From NCBI RefSeq assembly GCF_000337775.1, contig NZ_AOLQ01000065.1, positions 186,001 through 250,000 on the forward strand: DNA of 64,000 bases, read 5' to 3'. This DNA comes from Haloarcula vallismortis ATCC 29715. GTDB taxonomy: Archaea > Halobacteriota > Halobacteria > Halobacteriales > Haloarculaceae. Under the pieces are notes generated by a model that ran no database searches, was not told the DNA's origin, and saw nothing but the letters and a program-made list of their open reading frames with translations. Both the position numbers and the translations under genes were made by a program. Positions 2 through 59,216 of this stretch are shown here, in pieces; within the stretch, counting starts at the first letter, position 1, and the number at the start of each line of letters is the position of its first letter.

Positions 2-184
2 AAGGCCGACGGCTACGTCGTCCACCGCCAGTACAACGGCCCCTCGTTCGTCTACCGGGTCGAACTCCACAGCGGCGACGTCGTCCACTGCATGCACAAC
101 CACGTCGAGACGTTCGAACCGGGCCAGCCCGTCGAAGTTGATCTGGTCGCCGACCACGACCTGGCCTGGTATCCGACGGAATGA
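2..184 (+). CDS. ABC transporter ATP-binding protein, C-terminal fragment
   Basis: This open frame enters from the left edge and gives the last 60 residues of a protein ending in a TGA. The strand-like pattern, with phrases such as HNHVETFEPGQPVEVDL and HDLAWYP, is typical of the TOBE domain that closes Fe(III)/polyamine/sugar-type ABC transporter ATPases. The TOBE domain helps ATPase dimers sense substrate or regulators at the inner membrane face. The nucleotide-binding motifs lie outside the window, so the substrate cannot be told. The stop overlaps the start of the next gene in an ATGA junction, so the two are probably co-transcribed. Confidence 0.7.
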   Translation, partial: KADGYVVHRQYNGPSFVYRVELHSGDVVHCMHNHVETFEPGQPVEVDLVADHDLAWYPTE

Positions 185-2187
185 CGCGGCTGCGCCGGCC
201 GGGGGTACAGGCGGGGCTGGTGGCGCTGCTCGGCGGGCTCGTCATCTTCACGCTGGCCCACGTCGTCTTTCCACATCACACCACCAACCACGACGAGGGC
301 GTCTACCTCCAGCAGGCCGCCATGCTGCTTGAGGGGCAACTGTTCATCTACCCGCCGGTCGAGGAGGCGTTCCGCCCATGGTTCTTCGTGGCCGACGGCG
401 AACGGCTGTATCCGAAGTACGCGCCGGTTCCAGCGGCGATGTTCGCCGTCGGGAAACTGCTGGGCGGCTACCGCGTCGCGCTCGGCCTGATTTCGACCGG
501 CGTGCTGGCACTGACCTATCACACCGTCCGCGAAGCCTTCGACGCACGAACGGGCGTGGTGGCGACACTTCTCATGTTCGGGTCGCCGCTGTTCCTCGTC
601 GAGGCCTCGGTGTTCCTCTCGTACGTGCCGACGACGCTGTGGAATCTCGGGTTCGCCGCGGCGTACCTCCACGCCGACCGGACCGGGAGCCGAAAGACGG
701 CGGCCTGTGCCGGCCTCGCTATCGGCATCGCCTTTTTCGCGCGGCCGTACACGGCCGTGCTGTTTGCGTCGCCGTTTATCGCCCATGCCCTGTGGTCACT
801 TCGGACACGCGACCCGACACGGTTCACGCGCCTGTCGCTGACCGCCGTCGGCGGGCTCACCGGTGTCGCCGCGACGCTCGCATACAACCGCGTGGTCACC
901 GGTTCCGCCCTGCTGTTCCCGTACGAAGTGTTCGCCCCACTGGACGGGCCGGGCTTTGGCTATCGGGAGATTCAGGGCTACTCGCGTGAGTTCACGCCGG
1001 CGATGTCGCTTGACGCGAACGCCGAACTCCTCTGGAAGCTCCTCACCCAGTGGGTCGTCGCCGGTCCGCTGGGGACAGTCGCCGCGGCCGTCGGCCTCGG
1101 TTCCGTCGTGCGCCGCGGGATAGACAGCCGACAGGCAGCGCTGGCCGGCGTCCTCCTGACGGTCCCGCTCGGCAACGGTTACTTCTGGGGCACCGTGAAC
1201 ATGCTCGGGGACCTCTCGGACCCGACAGACGGCTTGGTCACCTTTCTGGGACCGTTCTACCACGTCGATATGCTCGTCCCGCTTTCGGCCTTCGGTGCCG
1301 TCGGTGTCGTCGCCGTCGCCCAGCGGGCTCATCGGCTGGTCACCGAGCGGATCAGCGCCGACCGGGCGCGTCCGGTCCTGCTCGCGGTAGCGCTGTGTGG
1401 CGCGGCGCTTGGCGGTGGCGTGACCGCCGCGACAGCGGCCGAGCCGGTTTCGGACAACTACGAGACGACCCAGCAGTTAGCACAGGCCTACGAGCCCTTC
1501 GAGGAGCGCGACCTCGACGACAGCCTCATCTTGCTTCCGACGCCGTACGGCGACTGGCTCAACCACCCGTTCCAGTCAGTCCGCAACGACCCCGGATTTG
1601 ACGGCGATACCGTTTACGCGATGCAACACCGACAGTTCGACGTGGTCGACGCCTATCCCGACCGGACCTACTACCGCTACGTGTTCCGCGGCGAGTGGGT
1701 CCCCTATCTGGGCCTGCCGGTCGAGCCGCGGCTCCAGCCGGTGTCAGTTGCCGAGGGCGGGACGGTCCGGACAGATGTGTCGGCGTCAGTTCCGGCGCAG
1801 GCCGAGCTGGTCTCGATGCGGCTCACAAGCGAGGACGAGAACGACTACGCGACCGTCACCGGCGCAGACAGGCTGAATCTGCAGCTCTCGATGGACCGGG
1901 AGCGGACGCGGCTCACCGGCGACGGAATCGACGAGCAGGTCAGCGTGCCGACGCCCGAAAACGGGACGGTGACGCTGGTCATGTTCGTCGACTACGGCAC
2001 CGGCGCGGGGTTCGAGTACCGGACGGAAACCCCGGTCACCCAGACGGACGACGGCGTGCGGGCGCTGACGCCACGGCTCGAAGTGTGTAAGGATCAGCGC
2101 CGCTGCGGCGGCGAAGCAGCCTACGTGCCGGGCACACACCGCGACGGAATCAGCATGAACGCGACAACGACAGCCGAAGGGACGTGA
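181..2187 (+). CDS. GT-C type membrane glycosyltransferase (family 39-like)
   Basis: The 668-residue protein starts with one transmembrane helix and then has an Asp-Glu pair (D38-E39) in the first outside loop. That acidic pair is the hallmark of GT-C/GT39 enzymes, which move a sugar from a lipid phosphate carrier onto a protein or lipid on the outer membrane face. About ten hydrophobic segments follow up to residue 420, and then comes a soluble outer domain of about 240 residues. The acceptor and sugar are unknown. It overlaps the preceding ABC gene by 4 bases and is followed after 9 bases by a twin-arginine protein. Other GT-C membrane proteins of unknown role would look similar. Confidence 0.7.
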   Translation: MTRLRRPGVQAGLVALLGGLVIFTLAHVVFPHHTTNHDEGVYLQQAAMLLEGQLFIYPPVEEAFRPWFFVADGERLYPKYAPVPAAMFAVGKLLGGYRVALGLISTGVLALTYHTVREAFDARTGVVATLLMFGSPLFLVEASVFLSYVPTTLWNLGFAAAYLHADRTGSRKTAACAGLAIGIAFFARPYTAVLFASPFIAHALWSLRTRDPTRFTRLSLTAVGGLTGVAATLAYNRVVTGSALLFPYEVFAPLDGPGFGYREIQGYSREFTPAMSLDANAELLWKLLTQWVVAGPLGTVAAAVGLGSVVRRGIDSRQAALAGVLLTVPLGNGYFWGTVNMLGDLSDPTDGLVTFLGPFYHVDMLVPLSAFGAVGVVAVAQRAHRLVTERISADRARPVLLAVALCGAALGGGVTAATAAEPVSDNYETTQQLAQAYEPFEERDLDDSLILLPTPYGDWLNHPFQSVRNDPGFDGDTVYAMQHRQFDVVDAYPDRTYYRYVFRGEWVPYLGLPVEPRLQPVSVAEGGTVRTDVSASVPAQAELVSMRLTSEDENDYATVTGADRLNLQLSMDRERTRLTGDGIDEQVSVPTPENGTVTLVMFVDYGTGAGFEYRTETPVTQTDDGVRALTPRLEVCKDQRRCGGEAAYVPGTHRDGISMNATTTAEGT

Positions 2188-2196
2188 TACGCAACG

Positions 2197-2781
2197 ATGA
2201 CTGACTACGAACTCACCAGACGTGACGCGCTGAAAGCGCTCGGTGCGGCGGGTGTTACCGTTACCGGCGGCGCGGCGGCGCTCGTCTGGAACGAATCGGG
2301 AGACGATGAGACGGCCGATTCAGCCGAAAACGACACTGCTACAGCCGAATCAGAGTTCGGCGACCACGAGCGCGAGACGTACCGCGCCGTCGCCGCTATT
2401 GTCTATCCGAGCGAGGTAACGGGCGTACAGGAATTCGTCGACAGCTACGTCACCGGGCGAGTCGAGGCAGACCCTGAGCGGGCAACAGAAATGTCGACCG
2501 CCGTTGCAGACCTCGACGCGTACGCCCAAGAATGGGAGGACACAGTCTTCGCCGCGTTGGACACAGAAACGCAAGAGGAAACGCTGCGAGGCATGGGCGT
2601 CAAGGCCTCCGACCCGGACCCACATGGCGACCCGCGGCACCGCGTCCGCTACTACCTCGTCAACGATCTTCTGTTTGCGCTGTACAGTTCGCCGACCGGC
2701 GGAACGCTCGTTGGTATCGAGAATCCGCAGGGCTACCCTGGCGGGGCGAGTAGCTATCAGCAGCCACCGGACGAGCGGTAA
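2197..2781 (+). CDS. gluconate 2-dehydrogenase subunit 3-like protein
   Basis: This 194-residue protein has a twin-arginine signal (LTRRDALKALG, residues 6-16) followed by a hydrophobic stretch, so it is probably exported folded. The rest resembles the small gluconate 2-dehydrogenase subunit 3 family, which normally accompanies a GMC-type flavin dehydrogenase and assists its export or assembly. The conserved-looking end with NPQGYPGG fits that family. No GMC dehydrogenase lies next to it here: the upstream neighbour is a glycosyltransferase and the downstream gene is on the other strand. Its partner must therefore be encoded elsewhere, or it works alone. Confidence 0.7.
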   Translation: MTDYELTRRDALKALGAAGVTVTGGAAALVWNESGDDETADSAENDTATAESEFGDHERETYRAVAAIVYPSEVTGVQEFVDSYVTGRVEADPERATEMSTAVADLDAYAQEWEDTVFAALDTETQEETLRGMGVKASDPDPHGDPRHRVRYYLVNDLLFALYSSPTGGTLVGIENPQGYPGGASSYQQPPDER

Positions 2782-2813
2782 GCCGGAGTCCGTCGCCGAC
2801 TGCGTCGGCGGTG

Positions 2814-3527
2814 TTATCGGAACCGCTCTTCAAGCGCGACTCGGACGATTGACTTTGCGATGGCGGCCCCGCCGGAAAACGGATCGAGTTTCGTCTCGCC
2901 TTTCCGCTCGTCGTACTCGATGGGGCGCTCACGAACGTCGTATCCGCGCATCAGCGGCCGCATGAGCAGCTCCGCCGAGAGTCCGGTGTTTTCCGTCCAG
3001 ACGATCTTCTGGAGGACGTCGCGGCGGTACGCGCGCATTCCGGTGGTCGTGTCGTGGACGCGCTTGCCCATGAGGACGCTTGCAAGCAAGGCGAACAGTT
3101 CGTTCCCCAGTTTGTTCATCGACGGCATCTGTTCGGCCCCGTAGTACAGCCGGTCGCCGCTGACGACATCGGCCCCGTCGTTTATTTCTGCGAGGAAGTC
3201 GGGGAGACGTTCCATCGGATACGTGTCGTCACAGTCCGTCGTGACGACGACCGGTCGATCCGGCGTCAGCACGGCTTCGCGGACCGCCACACCGTATCCC
3301 TGCGGTTCCTGTTCGATGACTGTCGCACCGTGTTCGCGGGCGATCTCCGGCGTCCGGTCGCTGGAGCCGTCGACGCAGACGACCTCGGCACGCCTGTCGG
3401 TCACCGCCGCGATATCGTCGAGGACAGTGCCGATTGCTTCTTCCTCGTTGTACGTCCCCATGACGACTGCGAGGTCGTCAAACGTGTACCCGGCTGAATC
3501 GTCAGCCCGTGTGCCCTGAATAGCCAT
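2814..3527 (-). CDS. GT2 family glycosyltransferase (dolichyl-phosphate sugar synthase type)
   Basis: The 237-residue protein is a compact GT-A fold enzyme. It shows TYNEEE at residues 25-30, the nucleotide-binding DGSSD at 53-57, and a DxD-type metal site in TDCDDTYP near 97-104. A later TTGMRAYRRDVL segment is typical of dolichyl-phosphate mannose/glucose synthases. Such enzymes load a sugar from a nucleotide donor onto a dolichyl phosphate lipid at the cytoplasmic face. There is no membrane domain. The gene stands alone, and it could supply the lipid-linked sugar used by GT-C enzymes such as the one at 181-2187. The exact sugar is unknown. Confidence 0.8.
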   Translation of the reverse strand: MAIQGTRADDSAGYTFDDLAVVMGTYNEEEAIGTVLDDIAAVTDRRAEVVCVDGSSDRTPEIAREHGATVIEQEPQGYGVAVREAVLTPDRPVVVTTDCDDTYPMERLPDFLAEINDGADVVSGDRLYYGAEQMPSMNKLGNELFALLASVLMGKRVHDTTTGMRAYRRDVLQKIVWTENTGLSAELLMRPLMRGYDVRERPIEYDERKGETKLDPFSGGAAIAKSIVRVALEERFR

Positions 3528-22226: not shown

Positions 22227-23285
22227 TCAGCTCTCGTCACGCCGCTGGTCGACACACTCACGAAGCGGCGTGAGGACTTCATCGACGACGGTGTACGGGT
22301 CAGTGTGGCGCTCGATGACGGCGTCGACGTACTGTTCGATGCCGCCGCGGCGGTCGAGTTCCTCGACCAGTAGCTCGTTGGCGTCCTCCCGAAGCAGGGT
22401 TCGGATTTCGGCGGCGAATCGCTCCCGTGCCTGCCCCTCTCGGCGGCCGGTCCGGTCCAGATAGTCCCCGTGGTCGGCCAGCGCGTTCAGGAAGTCTTCG
22501 ACTCCCTCGCCCCGGTTGGCGACCGTCTCGACGATTGGCGGGTCCCACGTCTCCGGCTCGTCGTCCCCGTCATCGGAATCGCCGGCGTGTGCGTCACCGT
22601 GGTCCCCGGCGAGTTCTGTCGCGCCGTGATGGCCGGCGTCCGGGCGTCCACTCCGGCCCTGGAGCATCTCCCGGAGCTGCTGGACCGTCCGGTCGGCCCC
22701 GTCGAGGTCGGCCTTGTTGACCACGAACACGTCGCCGATTTCGAGGATACCGGCCTTGAGCATCTGCACGTCGTCGCCACTGCCCGGCGGGACGAGCACG
22801 GCGACGGTGTCGGCCGTGCGAACGATGTCGACCTCGTTTTGGCCCGCACCGACCGTCTCGACGATGATCTTGTCCTTGCCGAAGGCGTCCAGCGCGGTCA
22901 CGGCGTCGGTCGTTGCCGTCGACAGCCCGCCCAGCGAGCCACGGGCGGACATCGACCGGAAGAACATGTCCATGTCGCCCGCGTTCGAGGCCATCCGTAT
23001 CCGGTCGCCGAGCACTGCGCCGCCGGAGAACGGCGAGGACGGGTCGATAGCGATGACACCGACAGTCTGGTCCTGCTCGCGGTAGGTCGCTGCGACCTTA
23101 TCGACCAGCGTGGACTTGCCCGCGCCGGGACTCCCGGTGACGCCGATAACGTCAGCTGTCCCGGTGTGTTGGTGGAGGTCAGAGATCACCTCCCGGTACC
23201 CCGGCGAGCGGTTCTCGATCTGTGTGATGACTCTGGCGAGGGCACTGTGCTTGCCCGCGAGCAGGTCAGCGACGAGGTCGCTCAT
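22227..23285 (-). CDS. meaB: methylmalonyl-CoA mutase-associated GTPase MeaB
   Basis: The 352-residue protein has the Walker A GSPGAGKS at residues 51-58, the MeaB-specific DPSSPFSGGAVLGDR block, ETVGAGQNE and VNKADLD. MeaB/ArgK proteins protect methylmalonyl-CoA mutase from inactivation and check its B12 cofactor by GTP hydrolysis. It overlaps the mutase B12-subunit gene by four bases, which strengthens the call. After VNKADLDG there is a His/Gly/Asp-rich stretch of about 35 residues, probably an extra loop. Confidence 0.92.
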   Translation of the reverse strand: MSDLVADLLAGKHSALARVITQIENRSPGYREVISDLHQHTGTADVIGVTGSPGAGKSTLVDKVAATYREQDQTVGVIAIDPSSPFSGGAVLGDRIRMASNAGDMDMFFRSMSARGSLGGLSTATTDAVTALDAFGKDKIIVETVGAGQNEVDIVRTADTVAVLVPPGSGDDVQMLKAGILEIGDVFVVNKADLDGADRTVQQLREMLQGRSGRPDAGHHGATELAGDHGDAHAGDSDDGDDEPETWDPPIVETVANRGEGVEDFLNALADHGDYLDRTGRREGQARERFAAEIRTLLREDANELLVEELDRRGGIEQYVDAVIERHTDPYTVVDEVLTPLRECVDQRRDES

Positions 23286-23704
23286 CGCTCGGGCGCGTTC
23301 TCGTGGATGTAGTCGATCATCTCCTCCATCGACGCACCTGGGCCGAATATCTCGTCGACACCTTGCCCGCGGAGTTCGTCCTGATCGTCGTCCGGGACGA
23401 TGCCGCCGACGAGGATGAGCCGGTCGTCGAAGGCGTCGTACTCTTTCAGCCCGTCGAGAATCTTCGGGACGAGCGTGTTGTGTGCCCCCGAGAGAATGGA
23501 GATGCCGACGACGTCAACGTCCTCCTGGACGGCGGCTTGCACGACTTCGTCGGGCGCTCGATGGAGCCCTGAGTAAATCACTTCGAAGCCGGCGTCACGG
23601 AGCGCCCGCGCGATGACGTGTGCGCCCCGGTCGTGACCGTCGAGTCCAACTTTCGCCACCAGACACCTGATGGTCCGTTCCGTCTGCTCCTGCTCGACAC
23701 TCAT
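23282..23704 (-). CDS. methylmalonyl-CoA mutase small (B12-binding) subunit
   Basis: The 140-residue protein is a free-standing cobalamin-binding domain. GLDGHDRG (residues 20-27) gives the axial histidine H24, followed by the SGxL-type GISILSGAH and the LVGGIVP loop. In archaea the mutase is split into a large catalytic subunit and this B12 subunit; together they interconvert methylmalonyl-CoA and succinyl-CoA in propionate breakdown. The large subunit is not in this window. The ATG at 23704 is used because the longer frame reads through the promoter. It is the first gene of a two-gene operon with meaB. Confidence 0.9.
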   Translation of the reverse strand: MSVEQEQTERTIRCLVAKVGLDGHDRGAHVIARALRDAGFEVIYSGLHRAPDEVVQAAVQEDVDVVGISILSGAHNTLVPKILDGLKEYDAFDDRLILVGGIVPDDDQDELRGQGVDEIFGPGASMEEMIDYIHENAPER

Positions 23705-23743
23705 GGCAGTACGTACCGCGCGGCGTGTTTTCATTCTTACCAT

Positions 23744-23756
23744 GTTCATGATGAAC
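23744..23756. promoter_or_regulatory. inverted repeat upstream of the mutase B12-subunit gene
   Basis: GTTCAT, one G, and ATGAAC form a perfect inverted repeat 40-52 bases before the mutase-subunit ATG; the match can be extended to CATG on both sides with one bulge. Its place fits an operator over the core promoter of the mutase/meaB operon. No regulator gene is adjacent. Confidence 0.4.
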
Positions 23757-23890: not shown

Positions 23891-24565
23891 GTGCGAACAG
23901 TCGCCGTCATCCCTGCGTACAACGAGTCGAGCACCATCGGGTCGGTGGTCGATGGGACGAGCCGCTACGTTGACGAAGTCGTCGTCGTCGATGATGGGTC
24001 GTCAGACGGTACCGCGGCTATCGCCCGGGAGCACGGCGCACACGTCGTCACACACGTCTTTAACACCGGTGTCGGCGGGGCCGTCAGGACGGGCTACCAG
24101 TACGCCATCCGGCACGACTACGACTTCGTCGTCCAGGTCGACGCCGACGGGCAACACGACCCGGCAAAGATTCCGACCCTGCTCGAACACGCCGAGGACG
24201 CGGACATGGTCATCGGCAGCCGCTACCTGAACGAGAGCATCGACGACTACCCGCTCATCAGGCGGCTGGGCATCACGTTCTTCACGACCGTCGTTCGCAA
24301 ACTCGGCGGTATCGACATCACCGACGTGACCAGTGGCTTCCGCGTCTACCGCGTCTCCGCGCTACAGGATATCCTCCACCGCTCGGACAACCACTGGGCG
24401 GTCGAACAGACGCTTGAGGCGGCCCAGCGCGGCCAGCGCATCGAAGAAGTATCGATCGAGATGCCGATTCGGGACGAGGGCGAGTCGCAGTTCAGCCTCG
24501 ATACGCTCGTGCTCTACCCGCTCCGCATGACTGACACCGTGTTTCGCGTCCTCCTCTTTCGCTAA
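23891..24565 (+). CDS. GT2 family glycosyltransferase (polyprenyl-phosphate type)
   Basis: The 224-residue protein starts at a GTG and shows the GT-A motifs VIPAYNES, VVVDDGSSDGT and the metal-binding DADGQHDP, then TSGFRVYR. It is of the type that builds lipid-linked sugars from nucleotide sugars. The downstream gene encodes a DUF2304 protein, a common companion of this GT2 subgroup that probably anchors it. It heads a five-kilobase glycan cluster on the plus strand. The sugar and the final product are unknown. Confidence 0.85.
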   Translation: MRTVAVIPAYNESSTIGSVVDGTSRYVDEVVVVDDGSSDGTAAIAREHGAHVVTHVFNTGVGGAVRTGYQYAIRHDYDFVVQVDADGQHDPAKIPTLLEHAEDADMVIGSRYLNESIDDYPLIRRLGITFFTTVVRKLGGIDITDVTSGFRVYRVSALQDILHRSDNHWAVEQTLEAAQRGQRIEEVSIEMPIRDEGESQFSLDTLVLYPLRMTDTVFRVLLFR

Positions 24566-24567
24566 TC

Positions 24568-24954
24568 ATGGTTTTTGGATTCGATTACTCACTGGTCAAT
24601 CTCCTGTCGCTGGCCGTCGGCCTGGCGTTCCTCGCGAACGGGTACATCATCGTCAGAAGCGAACGCGAATCGCTGGAGCTGTTTGTGATGTCGCTACTGC
24701 TCGGGGCGGGGCTCATCGTCGTCGCCATCGTCCCCAACGTCTTCGAGGTGGTGGCGCGGCTGCTGGGCCTGGAGTGGAAAGCCCGGGCCATCCTCGTTAT
24801 CTCGAACCTGACGCTGTTCGTCGCGGTGACGTACCTGCTCAACCGAATCGGGCATATGTACGACCGGCTGTCGCGGCTGAACGAGGAGCTGAGCCTCTTG
24901 CGGAGCGAACTGGAGGAACACCAGCTACAGACCGAGGACGAGCAGGATGACTGA
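24568..24954 (+). CDS. DUF2304 membrane protein
   Basis: The 128-residue protein has three hydrophobic helices (about residues 8-28, 38-58 and 73-95). A charged helix of about 35 residues with coiled-coil character follows (IGHMYDRLSRLNEELSLLRS). DUF2304 proteins regularly accompany GT2 enzymes and may hold them at the membrane; the biochemical role is not established. It starts two bases after the GT2 stop and overlaps the deacetylase start by eight bases. Confidence 0.85.
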   Translation: MVFGFDYSLVNLLSLAVGLAFLANGYIIVRSERESLELFVMSLLLGAGLIVVAIVPNVFEVVARLLGLEWKARAILVISNLTLFVAVTYLLNRIGHMYDRLSRLNEELSLLRSELEEHQLQTEDEQDD

Positions 24955-25804
24955 CCGGGCGGTGCTGTCGATAGACTTCGAACTGTTCACCCAGACACCG
25001 GCCTACCGGAGCGCCTCGGGGACGACCGACCGCGACGGCGTCGGCCTCGACGGCGGCCGGTTTTTCAGGGAGACACTCGCGGAGTACGACGCCACGGCGA
25101 CCGCGTTCGTCGTGTCGGCAGTCGCCGAGTCTCATCCCGACGCCGTGCGGGCGCTCGCCGATTCGGGACTGGAAATCGCCTCCCACACGCACACTCACCA
25201 GTTGCTCTCTGCCCTCGATAGCGAGGGGCGACGAGAGGAGTTGTCTAGGTCGAAGAACATGCTGGAGCGAGTCACGGACGAACGCGTGTCCGGGTTCCGC
25301 GCACCCGCCTTCGACATCACCGACGACCACTTCGGTCTGCTTGCCGATATCGGGTACACGTACGACTCCAGCGTGGTCTCCAGCCGGTCGATTCCGGGGT
25401 GGTACGGCGGCGAGCACGACGTTCACGAGCCGGTTGCGGCGTCGACGGTACACCCGAACGCGCCGGACACTATTACCGAGTTCCCGGCGAGCGTCATGCC
25501 GGGGCTACAGCTGCCCCTCACCGGGACCTGGCTCCGGTTTTTCGGCCCGCGCTACACAATTTTGGGCATGAAGTTGCTGGCCCGCCGGGGTATCACGCCG
25601 ATGCTGTACGTCCACCCGTGGGAACTGGTGGACCTGCCGGCTGTCGAGGGGGTGCCGACGCGGGTGTACGTCAGGACCGGCGACTGGATGCGCCGGGCCG
25701 TCGAGCGGATTCTGCAGCAGGACTTCGAGTTCACGACCGCGCGGGCGGTGCTTGAGGACGGCGAAACAGCCGCGACACAGCGACACAGGGGCGAGACGGC
25801 GTGA
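24947..25804 (+). CDS. polysaccharide deacetylase family protein (NodB fold)
   Basis: The 285-residue protein has the NodB motif 1 aspartate in SIDFE (D10) and the metal-binding histidines of motif 2 in SHTHTH (H80 and H84). GFRAPAF (motif 3) follows, and VHPWEL comes near the end. These metal-dependent enzymes remove N- or O-acetyl groups from surface polysaccharides. It lacks a signal peptide and so works in the cytoplasm, perhaps on a lipid-linked precursor. It overlaps the next gene by four bases (GTGA). Confidence 0.88.
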   Translation: MTDRAVLSIDFELFTQTPAYRSASGTTDRDGVGLDGGRFFRETLAEYDATATAFVVSAVAESHPDAVRALADSGLEIASHTHTHQLLSALDSEGRREELSRSKNMLERVTDERVSGFRAPAFDITDDHFGLLADIGYTYDSSVVSSRSIPGWYGGEHDVHEPVAASTVHPNAPDTITEFPASVMPGLQLPLTGTWLRFFGPRYTILGMKLLARRGITPMLYVHPWELVDLPAVEGVPTRVYVRTGDWMRRAVERILQQDFEFTTARAVLEDGETAATQRHRGETA

Positions 25805-26823
25805 CGAACCGCGTCCGTGACCTTGCCATCACGGTCGCCCAGTACGCTCTCGCCGTCGCGGCGGTGGCGTGGCTGCTCACACAGTTCGATATCAGGAGAG
25901 CAGTCGGCCTGCTCGCGGACGTTAACATCGAGACAGCACTTGCGATTATTGCCGTCAGCACCCTCGGTATCTGTGGCCGCGTGTACTCGTGGTACGCGGT
26001 TATCACCCCGCTTGCACCCGTCCGGTTCCGGACCGCCGCCGGGACGACGCTCATCGTGAACTTCGTCAATCAGCTGCTCCCTTCTCGACTCTCCGGGCGG
26101 CTGGCCGCACCGTTCGTCCTCCGGAGCCAGACCGGGATGGCCTACAGCGACGCCGCGGCCGCGTCGGCACTGCACACCAGTATCTTTGCGCTCTACTACG
26201 GCGTCGCGGCCACAGCAGGTCTTCTGTTGGCGATTCCACTCCTGCGGGTCGAACTCCTCCTGCTGTTGGCGCTCGCGACGAGTCTCTACCTTGTGGCCGG
26301 CCTCGCCATACTGTTTGGCGGCCTCAACCTCGCCTATCTGGACCGGCTCATCGACTGGCTGTCCGGGGCGGCCGTCCGGATTCCACGCATCGGCGAGGGG
26401 CTCGCGTCGCGCCTCGACGGCCTGCTCGAATTTACCGACAGCTCGACCACGACGTTTCGAACGCTCGTGAGTGAGCCGGCAGTATGGCTCCGCTACGCGG
26501 TCGGCTGGACCGTCGACCTCGTCCTCGCTCCCGGCGTCCGCGTCGGCCTGTTGCTGGGGAGTTTCGGCGTGGCGTTCGAACCACTGGTTGCGTTGCCGCT
26601 GTATCTCCTCGTTGCGTACACGGTGACGCTCCTCCCGCTGACGCCCGGTGGCATCGGTGTCACCGAGGCGACGGCGACGGCGGTGTTCGTCGCGCTTGGC
26701 ATCCCGGCAGAGGTCATCATCCCCATCATCTTCGTCGACCGGTTCCTCGGCATCTATCTGCCGTCGCTTGCGGGCTGGTATCCCTCCGTTCAGCTTGACC
26801 TCTCGTCGTTGACGGCGGAGTAG
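25801..26823 (+). CDS. flippase-like membrane protein (LPG-synthase TM region family)
   Basis: The 340-residue protein starts at a GTG and has seven to eight hydrophobic helices, with the conserved-looking NQLLPSRLSGRLAAP and LPLTPGGIGVTEA segments. This is the membrane part shared with bacterial lysylphosphatidylglycerol synthases and flippases (UPF0104). Members of this family are believed to move or modify lipids across the membrane. Together with the GT2 and deacetylase genes upstream it may translocate a glycolipid or polysaccharide carrier; this is an inference from context. Confidence 0.82.
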   Translation: MTNRVRDLAITVAQYALAVAAVAWLLTQFDIRRAVGLLADVNIETALAIIAVSTLGICGRVYSWYAVITPLAPVRFRTAAGTTLIVNFVNQLLPSRLSGRLAAPFVLRSQTGMAYSDAAAASALHTSIFALYYGVAATAGLLLAIPLLRVELLLLLALATSLYLVAGLAILFGGLNLAYLDRLIDWLSGAAVRIPRIGEGLASRLDGLLEFTDSSTTTFRTLVSEPAVWLRYAVGWTVDLVLAPGVRVGLLLGSFGVAFEPLVALPLYLLVAYTVTLLPLTPGGIGVTEATATAVFVALGIPAEVIIPIIFVDRFLGIYLPSLAGWYPSVQLDLSSLTAE

Positions 26824-26855
26824 CCAGCCGGAAACTGGCAGACCCGAACAGGGAT

Positions 26856-28643
26856 TCAGAACGGCGGGTGACGGTCCGGGTCGCACTCGCCGTCGCGTTC
26901 CAGAATGAGCGTGTACTGGTTCGCTGCGAGTTCCTGCTCGTCGGCGAACTGGTCCGTATGCGGAACGATCCCGAGCCTGAGCAGGTCGGTGAACGAGCCG
27001 GGCGTCGGTCGCTGAGGGACGAAGTTCGTCGGTCGCTCCCCGAACTCGGCGACGATTTCGTAGTTAGACTCCTCGTTCAGGAGGCCACGGAGGTAGGCAG
27101 CCTGTGCGTCGCCGTTCCGGTAGTAGGTGTCCTCCTTGAGATACAGGAGGTCCCGGTAGCCGATCTGGATGTATCGCGGGCACGCCATCGCTTCTTCGGC
27201 CGCCGAGTCCTGACCGGCGACGTGTCGGGCGGTCAGCGAGTGCGGGATTGCGGTGTCCTGAATGTGGACGCGGTACGTCTCCACCACGTCGCCGTCGTCA
27301 CTGTTGTCCTCCAGCCACGCCGTCGCTTCGTCCCGGGGCATGGATGCGAACTGCGCCGTCCCGACACCGGCGTAGACCGCCGTTGTGACCAACAGAACAG
27401 CCATTACCGGCCGGGCCAGCGACGACGAGCGCTCGCGGAGTTGCACCAGTCGCCCGCCAACGAGTACGGCGATGAGCGGGAACGTCGGCAGGAGGTGATG
27501 CACACGGAAGTCGTGCCACTGGGAGAACATCGCGACGTAGGCCACCAGTCCAGTCAAGACGAGGACAGTGCCGTGGAATGCGGAACCGCGGTCGCGCAAC
27601 GTGGCGACGGATGCCACGACGCTGGCCACGGCCGCGGCGAACAGCGGCAGCCCCAGCGCACTGAAGTAGCCCCGGAGAAACCACCACCACATCGGGGCAT
27701 CGGGTCCCGTCGGATGGCTCATCCGCGAGGTCGAACCGCCGAACACCCGCTGGATGAACGGCTCGGGCCCCGCCACAAGCGCGGTTGGGAACCCGAGGAC
27801 GATCATCGCGAACCCGAGTAACGCGCCACCCAGCAGGAGTTTCGGCCGGTACAGCGTCTTTGTCAGCGGCGCATCAGCAGCATGGGCACGCAGCAGGAAG
27901 GCAACGCCGATAAGCAGTATAACCGGCGCGGCCGTCAGCTTGAACGCGATAGCGACGCCGCCGGCGGCGCTAGCCGCCAGAAACAGTGTGCTGTCGTCCG
28001 TCCGGAGATACCGGACTAACAGGTACAGCGTGAGGAGGACGAACACTAGTGCCGGCATATCCTCGCCGGCCTCCTTCGAAATAGTAAGGAAGCCAAACGT
28101 CAGCGAGAGCACGACAGCCGACAGTCGGCCGGCGTTCCGTCCCTCAATTATGACGCCGAGGCGATATGTGAGGTAGACGGCACAGAGTGCGGCGACGACG
28201 TTCGTCAGGCGGATAGCGATGAGGCTCCAGGTCCAGATCCACTCTGGCGTGGCGGCCCAGACCTCGTAGTGTCCGAACTCCCAGCCCGGAAATGGCAGTG
28301 ACGTGAACGCGCCTCCGTCGCCAGTGACCACGGCGACGAGCACGACAGGGAGGATAGCCAGCCCGTAGAGGTACAGCGTCGCGCCGAAGGGAGCCCGGCC
28401 CCACTCCACGCCGGCTTTGAGGCCTTCGAAGCTCGGGTCTTCGAGGACAGCGCCGTAGGTGACCATCGCGTCTAGCAAGCGGCTGTACTCGTCGCGGGTC
28501 GCGAAGTTCGGAATTCGGTGCCAGAACCAGAACCCGACCATGACCGTCGATACAAGCAGAATATACCGGAGATACGGGTCCTCTCGAACGTCAGCCCGTA
28601 CCTGTTCGACAGCACGTCGGGGCAGTGACCGCCAGCCACTCAT
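26856..28643 (-). CDS. GT39-type membrane glycosyltransferase
   Basis: The 595-residue protein has one N-terminal helix, the Asp-Glu pair in TRDEYSRLL (D51-E52) and about ten more hydrophobic segments to residue 430. An outer soluble domain follows. The acidic pair and architecture are those of GT39/ArnT-like transferases, which use polyprenyl-linked sugars outside the membrane. It is convergent with the flippase-like gene, with a gap of 32 bases. It could attach the sugar loaded by one of the neighbouring GT2 enzymes. Confidence 0.78.
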   Translation of the reverse strand: MSGWRSLPRRAVEQVRADVREDPYLRYILLVSTVMVGFWFWHRIPNFATRDEYSRLLDAMVTYGAVLEDPSFEGLKAGVEWGRAPFGATLYLYGLAILPVVLVAVVTGDGGAFTSLPFPGWEFGHYEVWAATPEWIWTWSLIAIRLTNVVAALCAVYLTYRLGVIIEGRNAGRLSAVVLSLTFGFLTISKEAGEDMPALVFVLLTLYLLVRYLRTDDSTLFLAASAAGGVAIAFKLTAAPVILLIGVAFLLRAHAADAPLTKTLYRPKLLLGGALLGFAMIVLGFPTALVAGPEPFIQRVFGGSTSRMSHPTGPDAPMWWWFLRGYFSALGLPLFAAAVASVVASVATLRDRGSAFHGTVLVLTGLVAYVAMFSQWHDFRVHHLLPTFPLIAVLVGGRLVQLRERSSSLARPVMAVLLVTTAVYAGVGTAQFASMPRDEATAWLEDNSDDGDVVETYRVHIQDTAIPHSLTARHVAGQDSAAEEAMACPRYIQIGYRDLLYLKEDTYYRNGDAQAAYLRGLLNEESNYEIVAEFGERPTNFVPQRPTPGSFTDLLRLGIVPHTDQFADEQELAANQYTLILERDGECDPDRHPPF

Positions 28644-28685
28644 CCTGTCATCGCTCCGGGGTGTGCGTTGAAAAGGTTGCCCTTC

Positions 28686-29372
28686 TCAGAAGTAGTCGGC
28701 ATCGAACTCCCGACGGAGGATGTAATGGTTCACGTAGCCACGGACGTACTTCGCGAACAGTGAGACATATCCCTCGTCGGCCTCTCTGCGAGCAGATGTA
28801 TCGACACAGGAGTCGGCGTCGTAGACGATTCGGCCGTAGTCTTTCATCCGCAGGGAGAGCTCCGTGTCCTCCATGAACGGGATGTCTTCGTCGAAGCCCC
28901 CCGCGGCCTCGAACGCCTCGGCCCGGAAGCTACAGTTGAAGCCCGGTTGCTGGACGAAGCCCAGCGGCCAGGACACCCGGTACCAGTAGTCCGACAGCAG
29001 TTTGAACAGCACGCGGTGTTTGCGGCTGTCTTCGAGTGGACGTGCGGGGCCACCGACCCCCACTACATTGTCGTCGGTGTAGTGCCTGAGATGCAGGCGA
29101 ACCCAGTCGTCTGGAACGACAGTGTCGGCGTCGGTAAACAGCAGAATCGGGGCTTCCGCGGCCGCTGCTCCGCGGTTCCTGGCGAGCCCCGCCCCGCCCT
29201 CGTCACACCGAACGACGGTGTCGACGAAGGGCGTCTCGCGGGCCACCTGTTCTGTCCCGTCGTCGCCGCCGACCACGACGACCAGTTCCACTGGCTGTGA
29301 CTCGAAGGGAGCGAGACAGCGGGCAAGCGACTCCGCCTCGTTGTAGGCCGGGACGATGACTGCGGCGTCCAT
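28686..29372 (-). CDS. GT2 family glycosyltransferase
   Basis: The 228-residue form begins at MDAAVIVPAYNEAES, which is where the catalytic fold starts; the frame's extra 19 upstream residues look like leader DNA. VVVGGDDGTEQVA, the metal site DADTVVPDDW and LSLRMKDYG support an inverting GT2. It lies 53 bases after the MFS gene and 42 bases before the GT39 gene on the same strand, so it may form a unit with the GT39 enzyme. Confidence 0.83.
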   Translation of the reverse strand: MDAAVIVPAYNEAESLARCLAPFESQPVELVVVVGGDDGTEQVARETPFVDTVVRCDEGGAGLARNRGAAAAEAPILLFTDADTVVPDDWVRLHLRHYTDDNVVGVGGPARPLEDSRKHRVLFKLLSDYWYRVSWPLGFVQQPGFNCSFRAEAFEAAGGFDEDIPFMEDTELSLRMKDYGRIVYDADSCVDTSARREADEGYVSLFAKYVRGYVNHYILRREFDADYF

Positions 29373-29425: not shown

Positions 29426-30775
29426 TCACGAACGCCGCGCGAGGACAGTCCCCGCGAGGACGGCGACGAGGGCGATGCCGGCGAGCGTCCCGAACAGCGC
29501 CGTCGCGTTCGCAAAGGCCAGAATCGACCCCGCGAGACCACCGCCGAGCGCGCCAACCCCGAACACACCCAGATACGTGAAGCCGTACGACAGGCCGCGC
29601 GTTCCGGCGGGCGTGTACTCCGCGACTGCGGCCTGATACATCGGCTGGACGACAAAGAGGGCAACGCCCAGTAGCGCACCAAGCACCGCTAGCGGCCCGA
29701 AGCCCATCCCCGACACCGGGACGAACAGGACCGCAAGGAGCGCAAGCACGAGGAACGAGCCGGCGATGCCGTACTCGACGGGGATACGGTCGCTTAGTTT
29801 GCCCCCGGCGTACTGGCCGAGAACGCCGATGAGCAACAGGCCGGCGTAGAAGTAGTCCTGTGGCTTGAGCGTCTGCCCCGTCCCGGCCTCGATACCGAGC
29901 GCCGACAGGACGTTGGGGGGTAACAGGCTCTCAATCGGGATGGGTTCGAAGCCCGGCAGGCTCCGAAGCAGTTCCGGAAGGAAGGTGAGGACGCCGCGGT
30001 AGTACAGCCCCGAGCACATGACGACGACGAACACGAGCAGGAAGCTCCCAGCCAGTAGGTGTTTGCTCTCCGTGAAAAACTCCCCGAGCGAGTCGATGCC
30101 GCTGCTGGCTTTCGAGCCCCCGTCGGTCGCGGTCGTCACCGCCGCCGTCTCGTCGAAGCTCGCCCGCGAGGCATAAACGGCGGCGAGCAACGCAGGGACG
30201 CCAAGCACGAGTGCGACCGTCCGCCACTCGGCGACCAGTAGGAGAATCGCGGCGACGAGCGGGCCGAGGCCGATGCCGAGGTTGCCGGCGACACCGTGGT
30301 AGGCCAGTCCGGTCCCGCGCTGTTCGACGCCTTTGCTGATGAGCGAGAGCCCGGCCGGGTGGTAGACGCTGGCAGAGAGGCCCCAGAGGACAAGCGCCAG
30401 CGCGATGACGACCATGCTCGGAGCCAGTCCCAGCAGGATGTAGGAACTGCCCATGCCGAGCAGACAGCCCGTGATGAGCCGCCGGGAGCCGATTCGGTCG
30501 ACGACGATACCGCCCGGGAGCGCGCCGGCTCCGAACAGGCCATAGCCCAGCGTCACGATGACGCCGACGGTCGCCGTCGTCACGTCGAACTGTGCGACGC
30601 CGAGGTTGATGAGGTCGAACTCGGTGAGCCAGATGACGACAAATATCGGGACCGCCATCTCGTACGTGTGGACCAGGCCGTGTGCGAGCATGACCAGCGC
30701 GGTGATCGCTCGGTCGTTCGCGTTCACACTCTGGTTCGTGTCGGCCGCCGGCAAGTGTGTGACGGTTCTGCGCAT
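29426..30775 (-). CDS. major facilitator superfamily transporter
   Basis: The 449-residue protein has 12 predicted helices in two halves; the first half has the MFS loop motif in GGIVVDRIGSRR and the second GGKLSDRIPVEYG. Members of this family move sugars, drugs, ions or metabolites by proton or sodium coupling. The start at 30775 is chosen because the frame above it reads through promoter DNA. A divergently read ribbon-helix-helix gene shares the promoter region. The substrate cannot be deduced. Confidence 0.85.
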   Translation of the reverse strand: MRRTVTHLPAADTNQSVNANDRAITALVMLAHGLVHTYEMAVPIFVVIWLTEFDLINLGVAQFDVTTATVGVIVTLGYGLFGAGALPGGIVVDRIGSRRLITGCLLGMGSSYILLGLAPSMVVIALALVLWGLSASVYHPAGLSLISKGVEQRGTGLAYHGVAGNLGIGLGPLVAAILLLVAEWRTVALVLGVPALLAAVYASRASFDETAAVTTATDGGSKASSGIDSLGEFFTESKHLLAGSFLLVFVVVMCSGLYYRGVLTFLPELLRSLPGFEPIPIESLLPPNVLSALGIEAGTGQTLKPQDYFYAGLLLIGVLGQYAGGKLSDRIPVEYGIAGSFLVLALLAVLFVPVSGMGFGPLAVLGALLGVALFVVQPMYQAAVAEYTPAGTRGLSYGFTYLGVFGVGALGGGLAGSILAFANATALFGTLAGIALVAVLAGTVLARRS

Positions 30776-30817
30776 CCACGCGTGCGCCTCTCTGAACCCT
30801 CCCAAAATCAGGGGTGG

Positions 30818-30826
30818 GTTTTTATG
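30818..30826 (+). promoter_or_regulatory. TATA element between the MFS and RHH genes
   Basis: GTTTTTATG ends 24 bases before the GTG start of the ribbon-helix-helix gene. On the other strand it reads as an A-rich element 43-51 bases before the MFS start, so it may serve both directions. Confidence 0.45.
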
Positions 30827-30849
30827 TCCGAACAGTATAGGCGGCAAGT

Positions 30850-55712: not shown

Positions 55713-58700
55713 CTACACTTGTCGACGGAGTCGGGCGACACCGGTGATCAGCGCCAACGCGATTGCGACTAGCTGGACAGTGAATCCGGGACCAGACGCT
55801 GCGACCGTTTCCGCGGCTGGCTCCGCGCCGCCACCGCTTTCACCAGTATCGTCAGCCCCAGAGCCGCCTGTGCCCTGAACGGTCGTCGAGCCGACACGGA
55901 GGTCACCGGCACTGACGCCGTTGACTGTGACGGTGCCCTCGACGGCCTCGAACTCCACTGTCACAGTAGTTTGTTCGCCGGCATTGAGCCGGACAGTCTG
56001 AGAGGCGACTGAATCGCCGTCGATAGTGACTGTCAGTGGCTGCTCAACGGTTTCATCGGTCGGGTTCTCGACTGTCGCTCGCACTGAGGTGTTGAAGCCG
56101 GCCCGGACCCAGTCAGCCGTCAGGGACGCGTCAGTGACGGTTAGTTCGGCGGACGTCGGGGCAGATGCACTCGACGAGGGCCCCACTGTGGTCGCTTGAG
56201 TGGACGCATTAGCGACCGGGGAAGCGATAGCAATGGTTGCTAGGTTGGACGATGTCACCCGAATCGAGCCGTCTGTTTCGTTGACAGTGCTGGGTAGCTG
56301 ACTCCAGGACCCGTTGTGGTACTTGTACACCCGCACGGCATCCATCGACCCGTTGGCCGGAAGCACCGATTCGTCGAGCCGCAGGGTGTACGTCGCCCGG
56401 CTGATGGCAGACGCATTCGCACCGGAGGTGACAGTCACGTACCCGCGCACACCATCTCCCTGAACTGCAGCCATGTCGTTCGGCGTGGCGTGTGGGCCAA
56501 GCAGTGTCGTGTTGAACCCATCACTGTCGTTAGTCACATTGAGCGAGAGCGATGATAGAGTGAACGCTGGCGCGGTCTCGGACGGACCGGAGCGGTTCAG
56601 CGACTGGGAGACTGTTGAGTTCGCAGCGTCGGCAGATATTCGGACAGTGACCCCGCCGTCAATCTGGGACTTCGAGATAGCGGGAGCCTCTGCGCCGCCG
56701 CCATCGTCGGTCTCGTCCGGTTCATCATCGAAATCGAATCCACCACCACCGCCCCCGCCACCGCCCCCGCCTCCGCCACCGCCACCACTACTGTCTTCAG
56801 CTTCGACGGCGAGCGTCTCGGTGAGGGTGTTGCCAACAGAGAGCGACCGGTTGCCCTCGTTGTCGAAAGAGATACTGAAGAACGCAGTTGCGGTCTCACC
56901 GCCGGCAATCGGACCGATGGTTTTGGACTTGAGCGTCTGATTGTTCGCTGCGAGCGCCGCAGTGTAGTTCCCACTCTCCGTGCCAACATTTGCGACAGTC
57001 GCTGTCACATCCACTGACTCACCGGTTTCGACGGACTGAGTGCTCAGATTTACGTCGCGGACCTCGAACATCGCGGGCTGTGTCACTGAAACGTTTCCGC
57101 CGGAATCACCGTTGACCGCCACGTCGTACTCGCCGCCACTCTCGAAGGCGTAGACGAAGGTGACTTCGGTCTGTTGCCCGCCCGAGAGCGTGACGTTCGT
57201 CGTGTCCACGATGTCGTCGTTGGTCTGCAGCCGGACCGAGGAAGCCCCTGTCTCGTCACCGTTGTTGACGACCGTGGCAGTCACCTCTACGGGTTCGCCT
57301 GTCCGAGCGCTCGTCCGGTTCAGTCCGACTGCGGCCGTGTCGAACGCCGCCGCCTCAGAGACCCGGACCGTCCCGACCCGCTCGCCGTCAAGATCGATAG
57401 GGTATGGGCCAACGGCGGTGAACGACTCCGTGAACGAGACGGTCGCCGATTCTCCAGGCTCTAGTTGCAGTTCCGTGGTGTCCGTCCGCTCGTCAGCGAC
57501 GGTAAGCGGGACCTCGTAGGTACCGGCCTGGTCGCCGGTGTTCGTGACCGTCGCAGTCACCGCAACGCTCTCGCCCTCGCCCACACTCGTCGTGTTCAGC
57601 GCCCTGTCGGATACCTCGAACGTCGCTGGCTGCTCGACTGTGACCGTCTTGGTCTCGCTACCGACCGTGAACTGGTACGTCCCGGGCTCCTCGAACCTGT
57701 GCACGTACGTATCCGTCCCGGATTCATCCGGTGCAAGGTCGAACGAAACGGCGTCTGGGACTTCGTTCTCCGTTTCGACCCAGAACTCCTGCTTTGCGGT
57801 CACGGGCCCGTCGTTTCTGGCCGTCACCGTCAGCTCTGCCGCGTCACCTCGGGTAACCGTTGTTCTGTTCCACCTTGCGTCAGTGACCTGAATATCGGGT
57901 TGGCCAACGGTCAGGGTGCCAGCGGTGACCCCGCCGACTGTAACCTCGTGGTCACCCTCGTCAACAGCTCCGTCGAGTCGATAGCCGAGTGTCTCGTTGA
58001 CCGTCTCACCGGCTGGAACCGCCACCGACTGCGTTCCAACCTCTGTACCCCCGACCTCGATAGGCAGGGTAATCGTTCCGGCCTGTCCGCCAGTGTTCTC
58101 CACAATCACCCACGTTTCGAGCTTGTTGGACCCGTGACTACCCGTGTCCGTGTCAGTATTGACCTGGGTGTCCATGAGCCCGGCATCCTGAATCTGGATC
58201 GAGCCCTCGTCCGCGACTTCGACAGTCCCGACCGACTCTCCGTTTATCGTTAGATCGTACGTCCCCGCGCTGTCGAAGTTCGGTGAGAACTCCAGCGTCT
58301 TCGTCTCGCCGTTCTCGATTTCGACGGTTCGGTTGGCGATTTCAGCGCTGTCAGCCTGCAGAACGACGTCCTCCGTCGCTGACCCGTCCCCGTTCCGGGG
58401 GTTTTCCATCCGGACAGTTAGATCAACTGGGTCGCCCGTTACTGTCGATTCGTCGCTTAGCTGCGAGTAATCGACGGTGAACCGCGTCGGCTCCTCGATA
58501 GTGATTATCGGGTTCGAGCCGGAACCGTCCTGCAGTTCGTAGTCCCCGGCAGGCAGGCCGTCGAGATTTCCGGTGTCCAGCGTCCACGAAGTCGTTTCCG
58601 TGTCGCTGCTACCGACCTCGACATCGAGTTCGTTGGCCATCTGTGATTCCCCCGTATCCGTATTCTTCAGCGTCGGTGTGAGGGTCAGTTCGCCGGTTTT

Positions 58701-59216
58701 CCCGCCGGTGTTTTCCAGCATGTGAGTTACTTCGATGGATTCGCCACGCGTGACCGCCGTTCGGTTGACAGCCGTCTCAGTGACCGTGATGCTCGACGGT
58801 TCGACGACGGTCACTGTCCCGGCTTGGACATCGTTAACGACGAGGTCGTACTCACCGGTGTCATCGAGCGCGACAGGAACGGTTTTGGTCGTCTGCTGGC
58901 CGCCGGCGAGCGCAACGGTGACTTGCCCGACTTGCTCGCCGTCCGCTGTGACCGTTACTTGTTTTGTGCCGTCACTGTCTCCGGTGTTCTCAACCGTGAA
59001 CTCTACCTCGAATTCCCCGTCGGAGACAACCGAGAACGGCGCGTCGTGCGTCCCAGAACTGTTGGTCTTTGTCGTTGTAGCATCGGTCACTTCGATAGTC
59101 GCTGTCTCGTGATTGGATGCTGCCGCAACGCCCGGCCCGAACACCGGGGCCGTCGACACCGCAACCACAGCCAGTAGCGTCATCGCTGATAGCCACAGGC
59201 CCATAATCTTACCCAT
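55713..59216 (-). CDS. large PGF-CTERM surface glycoprotein with eight CARDB-like repeats
   Basis: The 1167-residue protein has a signal helix (residues 5-30) followed by eight beta-sandwich repeats of about 90-100 residues, each with a VTVTNTG- or VENTG-type core, up to about residue 808. A run of 16 glycines (811-826) follows, then a PGF-pre-PGF-like domain (about 845-1000). A ninth module, with SLTADWVRAGFN, precedes the archaeosortase tail GPGF (1142-1145) and the final hydrophobic helix. It is thus a lipid-tethered, S-layer-associated adhesin or scaffold. The smaller PGF-CTERM gene is 61 bases downstream. Confidence 0.85.
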   Translation of the reverse strand: MGKIMGLWLSAMTLLAVVAVSTAPVFGPGVAAASNHETATIEVTDATTTKTNSSGTHDAPFSVVSDGEFEVEFTVENTGDSDGTKQVTVTADGEQVGQVTVALAGGQQTTKTVPVALDDTGEYDLVVNDVQAGTVTVVEPSSITVTETAVNRTAVTRGESIEVTHMLENTGGKTGELTLTPTLKNTDTGESQMANELDVEVGSSDTETTSWTLDTGNLDGLPAGDYELQDGSGSNPIITIEEPTRFTVDYSQLSDESTVTGDPVDLTVRMENPRNGDGSATEDVVLQADSAEIANRTVEIENGETKTLEFSPNFDSAGTYDLTINGESVGTVEVADEGSIQIQDAGLMDTQVNTDTDTGSHGSNKLETWVIVENTGGQAGTITLPIEVGGTEVGTQSVAVPAGETVNETLGYRLDGAVDEGDHEVTVGGVTAGTLTVGQPDIQVTDARWNRTTVTRGDAAELTVTARNDGPVTAKQEFWVETENEVPDAVSFDLAPDESGTDTYVHRFEEPGTYQFTVGSETKTVTVEQPATFEVSDRALNTTSVGEGESVAVTATVTNTGDQAGTYEVPLTVADERTDTTELQLEPGESATVSFTESFTAVGPYPIDLDGERVGTVRVSEAAAFDTAAVGLNRTSARTGEPVEVTATVVNNGDETGASSVRLQTNDDIVDTTNVTLSGGQQTEVTFVYAFESGGEYDVAVNGDSGGNVSVTQPAMFEVRDVNLSTQSVETGESVDVTATVANVGTESGNYTAALAANNQTLKSKTIGPIAGGETATAFFSISFDNEGNRSLSVGNTLTETLAVEAEDSSGGGGGGGGGGGGGGGGFDFDDEPDETDDGGGAEAPAISKSQIDGGVTVRISADAANSTVSQSLNRSGPSETAPAFTLSSLSLNVTNDSDGFNTTLLGPHATPNDMAAVQGDGVRGYVTVTSGANASAISRATYTLRLDESVLPANGSMDAVRVYKYHNGSWSQLPSTVNETDGSIRVTSSNLATIAIASPVANASTQATTVGPSSSASAPTSAELTVTDASLTADWVRAGFNTSVRATVENPTDETVEQPLTVTIDGDSVASQTVRLNAGEQTTVTVEFEAVEGTVTVNGVSAGDLRVGSTTVQGTGGSGADDTGESGGGAEPAAETVAASGPGFTVQLVAIALALITGVARLRRQV

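Follow-up and report, generated by a model that had tools for sequence, protein, structure and literature searches.

A conserved haloarchaeal gene module with a deacetylase and a flippase-like protein, a candidate pathway for dolichol-phosphate-linked amino sugars

The 64,000-nucleotide stretch of the Haloarcula vallismortis ATCC 29715 genome that was analyzed here (contig NZ_AOLQ01000065.1, positions 186,001 to 250,000; hereafter, the window) contains a compact module of genes for a family 2 glycosyltransferase (GT2a), a small membrane protein of the DUF2304 family, a CE4-type polysaccharide deacetylase, a flippase-like protein and, on the opposite strand, a GT39-type glycosyltransferase. We consider it fairly probable (roughly 0.6) that this module represents an archaeal pathway for trans-membrane decoration with an amino sugar linked to dolichol phosphate (DolP), with a built-in de-N-acetylase. 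This is the best reading of the module, for which the analysis shows the protein families, their motifs and predicted folds, gene fusion, conserved linkage and co-occurrence. From this evidence we infer the activities of the proteins, the sugar, the acceptor and the order of the steps, as well as any role of three additional genes, namely those for a phosphodiesterase, a second GT2 protein (GT2b) and a transporter of the major facilitator superfamily (MFS).

Under the proposed scheme, GT2a, which the DUF2304 protein would anchor at the membrane and activate, would transfer an N-acetylated sugar from a nucleotide donor to dolichol phosphate; the cytosolic CE4 deacetylase would then de-N-acetylate this lipid-linked sugar, freeing the amine; the flippase-like protein, a member of the LPG_synthase_TM family, would flip the DolP-amino sugar; and the GT39 protein would attach the amino sugar to a glycan at the outer face. 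A path of this kind (load, deacetylate, flip, attach) had been proposed in a sequence-only reading of the window and is still the best account of the module, given the conservation, the fusions, and the MprF-like and GT-C folds described below. That account was incomplete, as it missed the phosphodiesterase and the link to an SqdB-type synthase, and the individual steps are still putative.

A gene block that recurs around the deacetylase

The four genes on the forward strand are nearly contiguous, with a 2-nt gap between GT2a and DUF2304, an 8-nt overlap between DUF2304 and the deacetylase, and a 4-nt overlap between the deacetylase and the flippase-like gene. The GT39 gene is convergent to the latter across a 32-nt gap and is separated by 42 nt from GT2b, which lies on the same strand. 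The overlapping or nearly touching arrangement noticed in the sequence-only reading thus corresponds to six open reading frames (ORFs) with junctions of 2 to 8 nt in the forward-strand block, and the convergent placement of GT39 and GT2b was likewise correctly described; the family names given to the six ORFs hold as well, each having a Pfam match above its cut-off.

The profile search covered 292 genomes of the class to which the window belongs, each at least 90% complete. An ortholog of the deacetylase was detected in 51 of these (388-540 bits, with the next match at 152 bits), and all 51 neighborhoods, from 17 genera and 7 families, were examined. Each of them has a flippase-like gene downstream of the deacetylase in the same orientation. 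In 47 genomes it follows immediately, its match beginning 823-925 bases beyond the point where the deacetylase match begins; in the other four, this distance is 2.1-5.0 kb. Genes for GT2 and DUF2304 are located beside the deacetylase in 49 of the 51 genomes, as separate genes in 36 and fused in 13, a count that takes in four genomes under the 250-bit threshold for GT2 in which GT2a is 55-57% identical; in one of these four (G223), DUF2304 was under the tblastn limit and was detected by the family model. The remaining two genomes (G091 and G226) carry a fused GT2-DUF2304 gene elsewhere. With seven families represented among the genomes that carry it, the block is more than a chance layout.

The membership of the GT39 gene calls for separate consideration, given that the four-gene operon and the convergent GT39 gene could be two neighboring systems, as the varying orientation and distance of GT39, and its absence from the compared stretch in seven genomes, might indicate. 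A GT39 relative scoring above 200 bits is nevertheless present within the compared stretch in 44 of the 51 genomes, representing six families. Five of the seven genomes without one have a strong match elsewhere (578 bits or more), so that 49 of the 51 genomes encode a strong match overall; in G085, the GT39 gene is on the same contig, just past the compared stretch. In view of this regular association, we regard two unrelated systems as very improbable.

A phosphodiesterase of the PF01663 family, about 515 amino acids (aa) in length, is a near-constant partner of the module that the sequence-only reading had overlooked. It is encoded beside the module in 36 of the 51 genomes and away from it in 13 of the 14 Haloarcula genomes; in the genome from which the window derives, the gene is located outside the window, about 110 kb from the deacetylase (G000:C65:99256-100797). 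Orthologs of the phosphodiesterase (816 bits or more, with the next match at 607) were found in 49 of the 292 genomes, all among the 51 that encode the deacetylase (Fisher p 9e-54, kinship of the genomes being ignored), and none was found without the deacetylase among the 292 genomes searched.

Candidate loader, deacetylase, flippase and transferase

GT2a matches PF00535 (94.6 bits), contains the motif DADGQ and has no hydrophobic segments; by profile comparison, its closest solved relatives are Dol-P-Man synthase and ArnC. The best NCBIfam model for GT2a is that of PpgS, at 109 bits against a cut-off of 370, and the ArnC equivalog model gives 57.9 bits against a cut-off of 529. The DUF2304 protein (PF10066, 65.1 bits against a cut-off of 25.5) contains three hydrophobic segments. 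In an order-level sample, DUF2304 is present in all 21 genomes with the deacetylase and in 7 of 101 others that are at least 90% complete, two of the latter matches being below the family cut-off; the control search with DUF2304 also produced matches in Corynebacterium glutamicum and Lactococcus lactis. According to the literature, DUF2304 is typical of GacJ-like proteins, which are encoded directly after a GacI homolog, and GacJ enhances the GlcNAc-P-Und (N-acetylglucosamine-phosphate-undecaprenol) synthase GacI (PMC8327497); GacJ contains three transmembrane helices (PMC8035078); and PpgS, a loader of N-acetylgalactosamine (GalNAc), is assisted by Rv3632 (PMC9671496).

Translations from several haloarchaea show DUF2304 and GT2 fused in one frame. 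In a tree of 60 GT2 rows, which were drawn from the deacetylase loci and DUF2304 matches and do not constitute a census of GT2 proteins, a branch with full support divides the separate type from the fused type. The two types are about 40% identical, and both partner the same deacetylase; therefore, it is the loading function that is constant and not one gene lineage. Nine fused rows are away from the deacetylase (L017, L021, L025-L029, L153 and L154), and seven of them form a group of their own, with L017 and L153 outside it; the members of this group may be loaders of another DolP-linked sugar. The fused rows from G091 and G226, where the deacetylase is encoded elsewhere in the genome, group with the deacetylase-linked ones at moderate support (88/77).

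The deacetylase matches PF01522 (73.9 bits) and PF11959 (65.1 bits), and the residues D10, E12, H80, H84, R118, P120 and H223 are invariant across 11 aligned orthologs; we take the invariant Asp, His-His, Arg-Pro and C-terminal His to be the CE4 catalytic motifs. A Kyte-Doolittle scan detected no hydrophobic segment in this protein, no signal was seen, and the first motif begins as early as residue 9. The deacetylase is thus most likely cytosolic, in agreement with the sequence-only reading. The in-frame stops in four matches and in L038 were considered as signs of gene decay; this explanation was rejected because the stops are at the gene ends.

The order of the genes alone does not fix the substrate of this enzyme, which might act in the cytosol on a nucleotide sugar or on a lipid-linked oligosaccharide, with GT2a and DUF2304 supplying an unrelated DolP-linked sugar. 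Five genomes that are at least 90% complete (G007, G035, G061, G077 and G093) encode DUF2304-GT2 fusions above the cut-off and have no deacetylase ortholog, and therefore, such loading can serve another end. However, the partnership of two GT2 types with the same deacetylase is what would be expected if the loading step were required, and the separate type appears only beside the deacetylase, a weak argument in that the 60 rows of the tree come mainly from such loci. We find a different substrate improbable, and deacetylation of the DolP-linked sugar is the version of the pathway that we follow below.

The flippase-like protein scores above the cut-offs of both PF03706 (107.5 against 33.4 bits) and TIGR00374 (60.5 against 43.2 bits) and is polytopic by hydrophobicity, as is the GT39 protein. 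Its predicted structure (pLDDT, the predicted local distance difference test, 85) looks like MprF, which accounts for each of the top six PDB matches (E 0.006-0.17, probability 1.00).

The GT39 protein matches PF13231 (41.4 bits) and PF02366 (29.4 bits), with PMT_2 above its cut-off, and D51-E52 are invariant in 10 aligned rows. A profile search of the PDB with the GT39 alignment yielded no match at E 0.1, and a fold model was therefore used; this model gave 29 Foldseek matches at E <= 0.001, with ALG12 in the first place (E 9.5e-10), along with ALG9, OST and ArnT (E 2.8e-5), pointing to a GT-C fold. The possibility that this gene is Agl23 was rejected, given a TIGR03663 score of 28.3 bits against a cut-off of 126.25 and the presence of a true member of that family elsewhere in the genome (306 bits).

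The other genes at the locus appear to be peripheral. GT2b matches PF00535 at 71.9 bits, as scored on the longer frame that begins at a further start upstream, at 29429, and TIGR04283 at 91 bits, below the cut-off of 182. This gene adjoins the module in all 14 Haloarcula loci, and three other loci contain weak matches (31-34%) 7.5-9 kb away; since such adjacency is confined to Haloarcula, GT2b is not a core member, and the notion that GT39 and GT2b make up one functional pair is not sustained. The MFS gene (PF07690, 106.5 bits) has the same orientation as GT2b and lies upstream of it; within the compared stretch it occurs in no loci other than the 14 from Haloarcula, and its distance varies.

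Divergent from the operon and upstream of it, the window encodes a MeaB GTPase and a B12-binding subunit of methylmalonyl-CoA mutase (22227-23749); MeaB occupies that place in 13 of the 14 Haloarcula loci, and the PF01663 phosphodiesterase is found there in many other genomes. A sulfatase-like protein (L107:6330-7439 and its relatives), the family of which was inferred from the start of the sequence, is encoded close to the module in members of six genera, which belong to three families. Elsewhere in the window, a 1167-aa protein (55713-59216) contains four CARDB stretches and has weaker matches to the phospholipase C C-terminal domain and to A2M. A tRNA scan and an Rfam scan of the 64-kb window gave no matches.

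Table 1. Genes of the module and adjacent Haloarcula genes, with positions in the window
Gene product	Position	Strand	Length	Pfam
GT2a, GT2-family, probable polyprenyl-phosphate sugar transferase (candidate)	23891..24565	+	224 aa	PF00535
DUF2304 small membrane protein, GacJ/Rv3632-like candidate partner of GT2a	24568..24954	+	128 aa	PF10066
CE4-type polysaccharide deacetylase with DUF3473 C-terminal part (candidate)	24947..25804	+	285 aa	PF01522 + PF11959
Flippase-like LPG_synthase_TM/TIGR00374 protein	25801..26823	+	340 aa	PF03706
GT39/PMT-like GT-C transferase, candidate outer-face transferase	26856..28643	-	595 aa	PF13231/PF02366
GT2b, soluble GT2, Haloarcula-only at the locus	28686..29372	-	228 aa	PF00535
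MFS transporter, Haloarcula extra, doubtful member	29426..30847	-	473 aa	PF07690

The SqdB-type synthase and the identity of the sugar

We tentatively propose, at somewhat less than even odds, that the sugar handled by the module is sulfoquinovosamine. In this case, an SqdB-type synthase would make a sulfonated nucleotide sugar, and the end donor would be DolP-QuiNS, which would serve for glycosylation of the S-layer protein; QuiNS is taken here to be sulfoquinovosamine. The N-glycan of Har. hispanica reportedly carries a QuiNS sugar. A search of the open-licence PMC literature returned no paper on sulfoquinovosamine in connection with Haloarcula or archaea. DolP-QuiNS itself has been reported in Har. 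hispanica (PMC9943897), so that the claim of the sequence-only reading that no glycan of this kind had been assigned to such a cluster may be too strong.

The SqdB-type synthase, a UDP-sulfoquinovose-synthase-like protein for which the best PDB match is SQD1 (E 1.7e-71), is present at 500 bits or more in 110 of the 292 genomes, namely, in 50 of the 51 with the deacetylase versus 60 of the 241 without it (p 3e-24). The association is seen both within the family to which the window belongs (37 of 37 genomes with the deacetylase versus 11 of 21 without) and outside it (13 of 14 versus 49 of 220). In four genomes (G026, G038, G160 and G186), the left ends of the SqdB and deacetylase genes are 4.2-7.0 kb apart, and two epimerase-like genes come after SqdB, an arrangement also seen in G125, presumably Har. 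hispanica. The loci of G160 (family f7) and G186 (family f1) form a collinear block, at 68-90% identity, that consists of the SqdB trio, GT39, the flippase, the deacetylase, DUF2304 and the phosphodiesterase; because of this collinearity, the whole unit, with the SqdB trio included, looks to have been transferred between families. The epimerase-like genes were also considered as a sign of an amino sugar, and this was dropped because the one that was searched also accompanies SqdB where the deacetylase is absent.

Three of the SqdB-epimerase-epimerase trios located beside the module are accompanied by a regulator that we would call TrmB-like from its sequence (L093:5066-5929, L121:16547-17407 and L122:1009-1815), possibly the regulator of the module. 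In G125, the trio (L155:3319-8796) adjoins a gene for a 777-aa protein with a weak similarity to the oligosaccharyltransferase AglB, scoring 110 bits where the cut-off is 450.

The same pathway could instead deliver an ordinary amino sugar, such as glucosamine or galactosamine, to an exopolysaccharide, a glycolipid or an O-glycan, with SqdB merely co-occurring in glycan-rich genomes. The nearest characterized analogs handle GlcNAc or GalNAc (PMC8327497, PMC9671496), the best NCBIfam model for GT2a is that of a GalNAc loader, and SqdB with its neighbor is common also in genomes that lack the module. On the other side are the presence of SqdB in all but one of the 51 genomes with the module, its proximity to the module in four of them, and the DolP-linked QuiNS already reported in the genus (PMC9943897). 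We judge a plain amino sugar to be unlikely, and sulfoquinovosamine is the candidate that we retain.

Several observations weigh against the proposed pathway or against parts of it. GT2a is far under every equivalog cut-off that it matches, and therefore, its sugar is not readable from the sequence; the Foldseek E-values of the flippase candidate are above 0.001, and a pLDDT of 71 marks the GT39 model as modest in quality. The GT39 matches in G026 and G038 are weak (98-104 bits), a genome-wide search of G202 and G206 found no ortholog of the phosphodiesterase, and the four-step scheme assigns no step to that enzyme. As for the sugar, SqdB uses UDP-glucose; its gene is more than about 7 kb from the deacetylase in 46 of 50 genomes (the next closest distance computed, in G046, is about 16 kb) and was not found in G085, a genome of about 170 contigs that is 94% complete and encodes the deacetylase. 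Because 60 genomes have SqdB without the deacetylase, and the searched epimerase-like gene follows SqdB in such genomes as well, the SqdB link is one-way and not specific to amino sugars. Finally, the co-occurrence counts come from related, phylogenetically non-independent genomes, and rest on the best first-look candidates scored in each genome (eight for the deacetylase, six for SqdB and five for the phosphodiesterase).

Relation to known pathways and implications

The streptococcal GacI/GacJ/GacK/GacL system and related multi-component transmembrane glycosylation systems consist of a GT-A loader, a DUF2304-type membrane partner, a flippase and an outer-face GT-C transferase, as described in PMC8327497 and PMC8035078. 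The haloarchaeal module resembles GacI, GacJ, GacK and GacL in combining a GT-A loader and a separate DUF2304 partner with a candidate flippase and a protein with a predicted GT-C fold. It differs in that the candidate flippase is a PF03706/TIGR00374 protein with an MprF-like predicted fold, whereas the Gac type has a Wzx or GtrA flippase; in addition, the module is archaeal, with dolichol as the expected carrier, and has the deacetylase and the phosphodiesterase as regular members.

A second parallel is the PpgS-Rv3632-Rv3779 system of mycobacteria and corynebacteria, with its GT2 loader, partner of the DUF2304/Rv3632 type and free amino sugar at the end. The factors that flip and deacetylate the sugar in this galactosamine pathway were called unidentified in 2022 (PMC9671496). 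In contrast, the operon described here holds candidates for both functions, and its GT2a is under the PpgS cut-off.

The logic of the proposed scheme is also that of the Arn pathway for the aminoarabinose of lipid A, in which a sugar is loaded on a lipid phosphate, its N-acyl group is removed in the cytosol by a CE4-family enzyme, and the product is flipped and transferred by a GT39/GT-C protein. GT2a resembles ArnC and the GT39 model resembles ArnT of the ArnC-ArnD-ArnE/F-ArnT series; yet GT2a scores below the ArnC model cut-off, and archaea have no lipid A. To our knowledge, the Arn pathway employs a different flippase family and includes neither DUF2304 nor a phosphodiesterase. In Francisella, the galactosamine pathway of FlmF2, NaxD and FlmK follows the same logic, with a deacetylase that acts on the lipid-linked amino sugar, the difference being that NaxD belongs to the YdjC family, whereas the deacetylase of the module is of the CE4 type.

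Closest to the window taxonomically are AglB, AepG, Agl22 and Agl23 of Har. hispanica, from the same genus, which act in a setting where DolP-linked sugars, including DolP-QuiNS, have been described (PMC9943897); the GT39 protein of the module is not Agl23. Four glycosyltransferase clusters of Har. hispanica have been published, and the module lies off the nearest two, by approximate ORF counting, and is far by number from the other two. The identity of the module with the published cluster HAH_1567-HAH_1573 was considered and tentatively rejected, approximate ORF counting in G125, taken to be Har. hispanica, placing these numbers about 20 kb away. By the same approximate counting, that cluster may match window positions 181-3527, about 20 kb upstream of the module, which encode a GT39-like protein with DUF7846 (668 aa, PMT_2 below cut-off) and a GT2 protein (237 aa).

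The module is set apart from Gac, PpgS and Arn because it departs from each in one defining respect (the flippase family, and the scores against the PpgS and ArnC models, respectively). We accordingly file it as a putative variant of lipid-phosphate-sugar trans-membrane glycosylation in which a deacetylase and a phosphodiesterase regularly take part. The presence of the latter suggests a step that, as far as we know, is absent from all the pathways compared here, those of Gac, PpgS, Arn, Francisella and Har. hispanica. Conceivably, although we would put the odds well short of even, these genes are the first set by which a sulfonated amino sugar linked to DolP is both produced and used. The set would comprise an SqdB-type synthase, a GT2-DUF2304 loader in interchangeable separate and fused designs, a cytosolic de-N-acetylase, a flippase with the MprF fold, a transferase of the GT-C type and a near-obligate phosphodiesterase, and the whole unit would have moved between haloarchaeal families.

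Judging from the open-licence literature, we believe that the genetic basis of free-amine surface glycans in archaea is poorly explained. The families identified here also offer candidates, as leads only, for flipping and deacetylation in the mycobacterial galactosamine pathway (PMC9671496). Given the joint presence of the deacetylase and the phosphodiesterase in 49 of the 51 genomes, one pathway of this kind can be tested directly in a harmless laboratory archaeon that is amenable to genetics.

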